Shown: piece by piece, positions 19,554 through 21,629 of the stretch
How the letters are laid out: each line of letters begins with the position of its first letter
How positions within the stretch are numbered: position 1 is the stretch's first letter
Assembly: GCA_903873485.1 (NCBI GenBank)
Contig: CAIQOO010000101.1
Span: 1-64,000, forward strand
DNA from: an uncultured beta proteobacterium
Lineage (GTDB): Bacteria > Pseudomonadota > Gammaproteobacteria > Burkholderiales > Burkholderiaceae_C
Length of the DNA stretch: 64,000 bases
Reading direction: 5' to 3'
Notes under the pieces: model-generated
Seen by the model: the letters and a program-made list of their open reading frames with translations, nothing else
What the model was told of the DNA's origin: nothing
The model's database searches: none
Program-made: the position numbers and the translations under genes

Positions 19554-19610
19554 CAGTCGCCGCTGGCTGCGTAAGCTGGCCGTGAAACGCCTGTGCTACA
19601 TTCCCAGCCG

Positions 19611-19679
19611 ATGAATTCGGTCACTTTTTTCTTTGGCTACTTTTGGTTCTCAGGCGCCTGCGGCGGTAGAGAGTTTTGA
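19611..19679 (+). promoter_or_regulatory. putative leader peptide ORF of a transcription attenuator (MNSVTFFFGYFWFSGACGGREF)
   Basis: 22-codon ORF with 6 Phe, 1 Tyr and 1 Trp, followed by a terminator and then DAHP synthase; no clear Shine-Dalgarno. Confidence 0.6.
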
Positions 19680-19710
19680 ACGTACCCAGATAAAACGTCC
19701 TGATTCCTCA

Positions 19711-19740
19711 AAAACCGCCGGCATCCCCGGCGGTTTTTTT
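19711..19740 (+). terminator. intrinsic terminator / attenuator upstream of DAHP synthase
   Basis: aaaaCCGCCGGcatcCCCGGCGGttttttt. Confidence 0.85.
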
Positions 19741-19778: not shown

Positions 19779-20921
19779 ATGAATGCCAAAGCTGTCGTAG
19801 TGACCGCCCATGAAGCCTGGACCAGCTCTTTGAATGCCAACGCCACCGACCGCACCGGCGAGACCGACAACGAACGTATCAAGGACATCACCGTGTTACC
19901 CCCACCCGAGCATTTGATCCGGTTTTTCCCGATTCATGGCACGCCGGTCGAAAAGATGATCAGCGCCACCCGGCGCAACATCCATGCCATCATGACGGCC
20001 AAGGATGACCGCCTGCTGGTGATCATCGGTCCCTGTTCGATTCATGACCCGGCAGCGGCCATGGACTACGCCCGCAGGCTCTTGGCCGAGCGCGAAAAAT
20101 ATGCCGATTCGCTGGAGATCGTCATGCGCGTCTATTTTGAGAAACCGCGCACCACGGTGGGCTGGAAAGGGCTGATCAACGACCCCTACCTCGACGAGAG
20201 TTTCCGCATTGACGAGGGCCTGCGCATGGCACGCCAGTTGCTGATCGAGATCAACCGGCTTGGCCTGCCCGCCGGCAGCGAGTTTCTGGACGTGATTTCG
20301 CCGCAATACCTGGGCGACCTGATTTCCTGGGGGGCAATTGGCGCACGCACCACCGAAAGCCAGGTGCACCGGGAACTGGCCTCAGGGCTGTCGGCGCCGA
20401 TTGGCTTCAAGAACGGCACCGACGGCAACATCAAAATTGCCACCGATGCAATCCAGGCAGCGGCTGGTGGCCACCACTTTTTGTCGGTGCACAAAAATGG
20501 CCAAGTGGCGATTGTGCAGACCAAGGGCAACAAGGACTGCCACCTGATCTTGCGCGGCGGCAAAGTGCCCAACTATGACGCAGCCAGCGTTGCCGCCGCC
20601 TGTGCCGAGCTGGCCAAGTCGAAACTTCAGTCCACCCTGATGGTCGATTGCAGCCACGCCAACAGCAGCAAGCAGCATGAAAAGCAACTGGATGTGGCGC
20701 GCAACATTGCGGCCCAAATATCCGGAGGCTCCAGACAGGTGTTTGGCGTGATGGTCGAAAGTCATTTGAATCCCGGCGCACAAAAGTTCACGCCCGGCAA
20801 GGACAAGACCGACCGGCTGACCTATGGCCAAAGCATCACCGATGCCTGTCTGGGTTGGGAGCAGTCGCTGCAGGCACTGGAGGTGTTGTCGCAAGCGGTG
20901 CTGACGCGCCGGGCCGGATAA
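19779..20921 (+). CDS. aroG: class I 3-deoxy-7-phosphoheptulonate (DAHP) synthase
   Basis: LLVIIGPCSIHDPAAAMDYARRL; GNKDCHLILRGGKVPNYD; DCSHANSSKQHEKQ; isozyme type (aroF/G/H) not resolved. Confidence 0.95.
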   Translation: MNAKAVVVTAHEAWTSSLNANATDRTGETDNERIKDITVLPPPEHLIRFFPIHGTPVEKMISATRRNIHAIMTAKDDRLLVIIGPCSIHDPAAAMDYARRLLAEREKYADSLEIVMRVYFEKPRTTVGWKGLINDPYLDESFRIDEGLRMARQLLIEINRLGLPAGSEFLDVISPQYLGDLISWGAIGARTTESQVHRELASGLSAPIGFKNGTDGNIKIATDAIQAAAGGHHFLSVHKNGQVAIVQTKGNKDCHLILRGGKVPNYDAASVAAACAELAKSKLQSTLMVDCSHANSSKQHEKQLDVARNIAAQISGGSRQVFGVMVESHLNPGAQKFTPGKDKTDRLTYGQSITDACLGWEQSLQALEVLSQAVLTRRAG

Positions 20922-21053: not shown

Positions 21054-21629
21054 ATGTCTGACCCTGTCCTGAACGCCGCCACACCCAGCCAGAGCAAGCT
21101 GGAACTGCTGCGCCTGCATTTTCCGCAAGCTGTCGAGACTGATGCTGATGGCCGCATCCGCATCAACGCCGCTGCCCTGCAAATGGCAATTGACCCCGGC
21201 AACCTGGCGGGCATTCATGTGAAAGAAGACGGCTACGAGCTGCGCTGTGTCGGCAAGCGCGAGGCTTACCACAGCGCCTTTGTGCCAGTGCAAAAAATCT
21301 TGACCCCGCTGCCTGCCGAGAGCAAACACTGGGACAGCACCGGCAACCTGCTGCTGTCCGAAGGCCTGCCACTCACCACCGTGCTGCACCCCGTCAAAGA
21401 CCAGCGCCTCTACCTTGCCGCCGACGTGCTGCTGATCGTGCAAGCCGTGCCGCTGGACGAACTGATCGACACCCTGCACACCCTGCACACCCTGCAAGCT
21501 GCTGGTACACCGGAGCTGCACCTCACCGTTTATGCACCGTGGATTGCCAACAACAACTTCATGCTCGGCATCAAAACCGTGGCCGAGTCGCTGGGCTATT
21601 CGCCTGACAAGCTGCGGCTGCGCGGCTAA
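21054..21629 (+). CDS. hypothetical protein; N-terminal half resembles the N-terminus of type III-like site-specific DNA methyltransferases (Mod)
   Basis: SQSKLELLRLHFPQAVETDADGRIRIN...NLLLSEGLPLTTVL; lacks methyltransferase catalytic motifs; likely truncated remnant. Confidence 0.4.
   Translation: MSDPVLNAATPSQSKLELLRLHFPQAVETDADGRIRINAAALQMAIDPGNLAGIHVKEDGYELRCVGKREAYHSAFVPVQKILTPLPAESKHWDSTGNLLLSEGLPLTTVLHPVKDQRLYLAADVLLIVQAVPLDELIDTLHTLHTLQAAGTPELHLTVYAPWIANNNFMLGIKTVAESLGYSPDKLRLRG

Follow-up and report, generated by a model that had tools for sequence, protein, structure and literature searches.

The DAHP synthase gene of an uncultured beta proteobacterium raises the question of how entry into the shikimate pathway is controlled in a genome with no matches to the TyrR and TrpR families (E. 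coli controls were detected), which among the proteobacteria surveyed are confined to the gammaproteobacteria (PMC5343134). In the window, by which is meant the whole 64,000-nucleotide stretch of DNA that was analyzed, the gene (19779..20921, + strand) is preceded by an AAGGA ribosome-binding site and encodes a class-I DAHP synthase of the aroF/G/H family (TIGR00034, E 1.7e-158), in agreement with its first-pass annotation as an aroG located downstream of a terminator; its nearest matches are AroG proteins of Polaromonas and others (~80% identity), by which the organism is placed in the Comamonadaceae or near them. A conserved-looking ORF of 191 aa with no NCBIfam or Pfam match lies downstream of aroG (21054-21629), and the upstream neighbor, tldD, ends 57 nt before the leader discussed here. 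The genome contains a second class-I DAHP synthase gene, which has no aromatic leader, and a covariance model search of the genome finds one full-length element only.

The first-pass annotation read the sequence ahead of aroG as a candidate attenuator responding to aromatic amino acids. That reading is supported by conserved aromatic leaders and paired segments upstream of DAHP synthase genes, and the element is very likely a ribosome-mediated transcription attenuator of the phe/trp type that controls the class-I DAHP synthase gene. Judged from its sequence, this gene is very probably switched on by shortage of Phe, perhaps also of Tyr.

Anatomy of the aroG leader

The leader peptide ORF (19611..19679, + strand; ATG at 19611, TGA at 19677-19679) has 22 codons and would encode MNSVTFFFGYFWFSGACGGREF, with 6 Phe, 1 Tyr and 1 Trp (8 aromatics in 22 codons), exactly to the base as first annotated. 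The putative sensor codons are TTT TTC TTT GGC TAC TTT TGG TTC (F-F-F-G-Y-F-W-F; 19626..19649, + strand). If 7.5% of residues are taken to be aromatic, a simple binomial calculation gives P ~8e-5 for at least 8 aromatics in 21 residues, but the decisive evidence that the leader is not a chance product is its conservation rather than this value.

Between the leader ORF and the structural gene lies the strong intrinsic terminator reported earlier (19710..19740, + strand), composed of the 3:4 hairpin AAAAACCGCCGGcatccCCGGCGGTTTTT (19710-19738, 12 pairs, 7 of them G-C) and a T7 tract (19734-19740). Relatives carry compensatory changes in this hairpin: across 55 sequences, 93.3% of cells are paired, and one pair is GC in 37, AU in 16 and UA in 2. 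Region 3 (ACCGCCG, 19714..19720, + strand), in the 5' arm of the terminator, has two alternative partners, region 4 in the terminator and region 2 in an antiterminator. Region 2 (19661..19673, + strand) consists of the antiterminator strand CGGCGGT (19661-19667), an A, and the 1:2 strand GAGAG; the complementarity of CGGCGGT to ACCGCCG that had been pointed out is confirmed. The core of the mutually exclusive 2:3 antiterminator, GGCGG/CCGCC, is retained in 59 of 60 leaders and forms in simulated nascent RNA in the stalled state. Its flanking pair is CG, UA or AU depending on the group, and region 4 varies along with it; this 2:3 covariation is real but limited, being that of a single pair that is also part of 3:4, and it is inflated by relatedness. 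The strongest argument for selection at the RNA level is that GGCGG..GAGAG is kept as nucleotides while falling in three different frames of the leader (GGCGG start modulo 3, 79/44/6).

The classical pheA/trp-type layout attributed to this leader was correct for segments 2, 3 and 4, but region 1 and the 1:2 hairpin had been overlooked. Region 1 (TTCTC, 19647..19651, + strand), drawn from the last Phe codon and the Ser codon after it, can pair with the GAGAG at 19669-19673, and in a single-strand fold of the segment the hairpin continues with inner pairs between CGCC (19655-19658) and GGCG (19662-19665). This putative hairpin would complete the classical set of three. By inspection, its counterparts are ATCTC/GAGAG in Burkholderia and ATTCC/GGAGT in Oxalobacteraceae. 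Since the MAFFT alignment (A1) displaces the Burkholderia-type region 1 by one column, 1:2 was judged on anchored sequences and left uncounted on A1; against synonymous-codon shuffles, the native hairpin is no more than weakly better (mean z -0.57, median -0.8).

The earlier suspicion of a leaderless message, prompted by the closeness of a -10-like motif to an ATG that has no clear Shine-Dalgarno sequence, gains support from the upstream region. The -10-like motif is present as described (TGCTACATT), but at 19594-19602, one base before the coordinates first given, and it belongs to an extended -10 element, TGTGCTACATT (19592..19602, + strand; -10 hexamer TACATT, 19597-19602), which ends 8 nt 5' of the leader ATG and predicts a transcription start at ~19609-19611, at the ATG itself. 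No sigma-70 promoter at the window leader passed a scan for two hexamers, so the case for a promoter rests on conservation. TGnTAnnnT ends 6-10 nt 5' of the ATG in 65 of 137 non-redundant leaders (6-8 nt in all but one), compared to a mean of 1.3 and a maximum of 6 in shuffled upstream sequence, and TGTGCTACATT is the consensus across 64 loci, a set in which no clear -35 element was found. A Shine-Dalgarno-like 4-mer is located upstream in just 8 of 137 homologous leaders. The predicted transcript accordingly begins at the ATG or no more than ~2 bases away from it, and with an extended -10 so close to the ATG and Shine-Dalgarno sequences so rare, translation of the leader peptide is probably leaderless. 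In Burkholderia-type leaders a TATAAA stands ~40 nt upstream, and a Shine-Dalgarno sequence is not evident.

Conservation and linkage to DAHP synthase genes

Of 80 DAHP synthase loci collected by AroG similarity, in ~63 a short aromatic-rich ORF precedes a CCGCC/GGCGG terminator. Searched at E up to 1e-5, a covariance model built on the leader (R1) matches 378 of 401 genomes in the family of the window (137 of 141 genera; 341 of 352 genomes of good quality), almost always in single copy, so that the element is present once per genome in ~94-97% of the family. In the wider order, 153 of 399 genomes have matches at E up to 0.01; all 83 of the strong matches examined sit directly upstream of DAHP synthase, compared to none of six weaker matches checked, and four matches outside the order likewise precede DAHP synthase. 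Conservation of the leader codons and the antiterminator in relatives had been set in advance as a test of the attenuator proposal, and both are conserved across the order and in a few families beyond. The leader was not found before the DAHP synthase genes of Polynucleobacter or before some Cupriavidus copies (L031, L033, L035, L036 and L039); another Cupriavidus locus (L081) does carry it.

The short ORF, in which codons for end products of the controlled pathway abound, is kept in ~130 homologs, and its Phe/Tyr/Trp run is preserved in frame, that is, as protein. The 129 distinct leader peptides average 4.6 Phe, 1.9 Tyr and 0.7 Trp per 24 residues. Comamonadaceae leaders typically read F[YF]F.YFWFS..GGRE, those of Burkholderia, Caballeronia and Paraburkholderia MSAKFYFYFFWHLRPLADREG, and Oxalobacteraceae leaders ..FFTGYFYFSNSNPKAVE. 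This composition suggests that the main signal sensed is likely to be Phe, with Tyr second.

Some leaders depart from these patterns. Two DAHP synthase leaders of one family (L171 and L172, family f44) have GGCGG/CCGCC hairpins and have lost most of the aromatic codons, and a third (L165) has an early stop following FFF; these are possibly decaying or re-purposed attenuators. Weak R1 matches (E >= 4e-5 among those fetched) were rejected as family members: they are unattached to DAHP synthase and mostly resemble unrelated terminators or other leaders. At two loci (L176, G117:C20; L179, G253:C1:1710110-1712758) there is a different aromatic-rich short ORF (MVTFSVVYNVYFYWYRSSGGAKGC and MITFSAVFNAYFYWYRSSRR.., respectively) with a downstream terminator, situated between an apparent ETF-ubiquinone oxidoreductase gene and a gene without a Pfam match (product MNEVSDA..); it is possibly another aromatic-sensing attenuator. 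One weak R1 match (L178, G308:C1:272902-275553) consists of a Leu-rich short ORF (MELFIAALLSLLLLSRLK..) and a terminator, and is probably a leucine-type leader.

Folding, proposed mechanism and alternatives

A stalled ribosome covers about 11 nt downstream of its A-site codon. The distance from the end of the last aromatic codon to GGCGG has a median of 11 nt; a ribosome stalled there would therefore cover region 1 and leave region 2 just free. Alternative folds, named at the outset as a check, were computed in a simulation of 130 leaders and do compete (2:3 versus 3:4) in a manner that depends on the state of the ribosome: when the ribosome is stalled at the last aromatic codon, 2:3 pairing in nascent RNA has a mean of 0.85, which falls to 0.51 if no ribosome is present and to 0 if one sits at the stop codon, and the corresponding values for the window leader are 1.00, 0.38 and 0, the value of 0 in the stop state being a consequence of the assumed ribosome footprint. 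In 18 of the 130 leaders the last aromatic codon is so near region 2 that a ribosome stalled on it would occlude that region, and an earlier codon would have to do the sensing. Where the stop codon comes late, the terminating ribosome may already have passed region 2 and left it exposed.

In the proposed mechanism, the transcript would begin at the leader ATG or beside it, and its leaderless 5' end would be where ribosomes load. A shortage of charged tRNA-Phe (possibly also of tRNA-Tyr or tRNA-Trp) would make the ribosome stall in FFFGYFWF, covering region 1 and leaving region 2 (GGCGG) free to pair with region 3, and RNA polymerase would read into aroG. When charged tRNA is ample, the ribosome would reach the stop codon and occlude region 2, or the 1:2 hairpin would re-form behind it; with region 2 unavailable, the 3:4 terminator would form and transcription would end ~130 nt after its start.

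Intergenic terminators are ordinary and the end of tldD (19553) is near, which would suit a hairpin that terminates the tldD transcript or is constitutive, with the aromatic ORF an accident of a T-rich promoter region. This explanation retains practically no probability, having already been refuted by conservation: peptide, GGCGG and terminator are conserved jointly in 94% of the sampled genomes of the family, the strong matches examined always precede DAHP synthase, and a conserved promoter element separates tldD from the leader. Direct sensing of an aromatic metabolite by the RNA, as a riboswitch or through a bound protein and with the ORF incidental, would account for a structured leader with alternative folds ahead of a biosynthetic gene; it is nevertheless extremely improbable, given that no Rfam family matches, that the hairpins are short and simple with no large conserved aptamer, and that in-frame conservation is mostly of Phe, Tyr and Trp codons.

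The strong in-frame conservation of the peptide motif inside each family would also suit nascent-peptide arrest of the TnaC kind, in which an F-Y-F-x-Y-F-W-F-S peptide would stall the ribosome on an aromatic ligand and not via uncharged tRNA. Between leaders, however, the aromatics differ widely in order, spacing and number (FFFFFY, YFYFYF, FFTGYFYF, AYWFW), a variability that fits a codon sensor instead of a fixed arrest motif, and such arrest is highly unlikely. It is unlikely that attenuation is real and responds mainly to Tyr, to Trp or to a general loss of translation: Tyr is found in 125 of the 129 leader peptides and Trp in 77, but Phe is the commonest and least dispensable residue (at least three in 127 of 129), and the AroR peptide of Corynebacterium glutamicum (Phe-Tyr-Phe), which controls the DAHP synthase gene aroF, answers Phe but not Tyr limitation, according to the account of Neshat et al. 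2014 given in PMC11802643. The preferred reading is a phe/trp-type attenuator that most likely senses Phe.

Precedents and significance

Attenuation of DAHP synthase genes, which the first-pass annotation contrasted with the control by TyrR/TrpR in E. coli, has precedents in C. glutamicum aroR-aroF and in the aroF motif of Acholeplasma. As in the former, in which control is by ribosome stalling according to the same account, an aromatic leader peptide precedes a DAHP synthase gene; unlike aroR, which belongs to another phylum and is compared here by its description, the present leaders have aromatic runs that are longer and often include Trp, and their GGCGG-GAGAG/CCGCC core is distinct. The Acholeplasma motif, uORFC-13-1, predicted upstream of aroF in 2021 from 24 representatives (PMC8632094), likewise has a predicted Phe-coding uORF and then a terminator upstream of DAHP synthase; unlike the present family, as far as its description allows comparison, it has a ribosome-binding site and is confined to Acholeplasma and environmental sequences (PMC8632094). 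The Phe-rich leaders of E. coli pheL-pheA and pheM-pheST (Rfam Phe_leader, RF01859) also form alternative 1:2, 2:3 and 3:4 hairpins like those predicted here, but the target gene here is that of DAHP synthase; up to E 1, RF01859 has no match in the window, and it scores 19 bits on a relative (L057) against a cut-off of 55, and 12 relatives scanned against Rfam gave no gathering-level match. A leaderless leader-peptide attenuator is known in Sinorhizobium meliloti trpL (rnTrpL/peTrpL), in which the RNA starts at the ATG (PMC7298713), as is predicted here. In contrast to the aroG leader, trpL senses Trp and controls trpE(G), and its attenuated RNA and peptide act in trans as well (PMC7298713).

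No description of a betaproteobacterial aroG attenuator was found among the open-access papers searched, and an earlier prediction of the Burkholderiales element in a subscription journal is possible. With these precedents in C. glutamicum, Acholeplasma and S. meliloti, the element is best regarded as a widespread new family with a mechanism of a kind already known. A stronger proposal, namely an undescribed and near-universal Burkholderiales family in which leaderless translation is integral to the sensor, the ~130-nt terminated RNA remains as leaderless mRNA or sRNA, and the RNA or its peptide has effects in trans like those reported for rnTrpL/peTrpL, is quite unlikely to hold in full.

The occurrence of such leaders in Corynebacterium, Acholeplasma and Burkholderiales, set side by side by description only, hints at more than one origin of leader-peptide control over DAHP synthase. 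As a phe/trp-type attenuator, the aroG leader would be a good system for the study of attenuation on leaderless mRNA, a natural target when aromatics are to be overproduced in Comamonadaceae or related bacteria, and a concrete and testable answer to the question of how entry into the shikimate pathway is controlled in these organisms.
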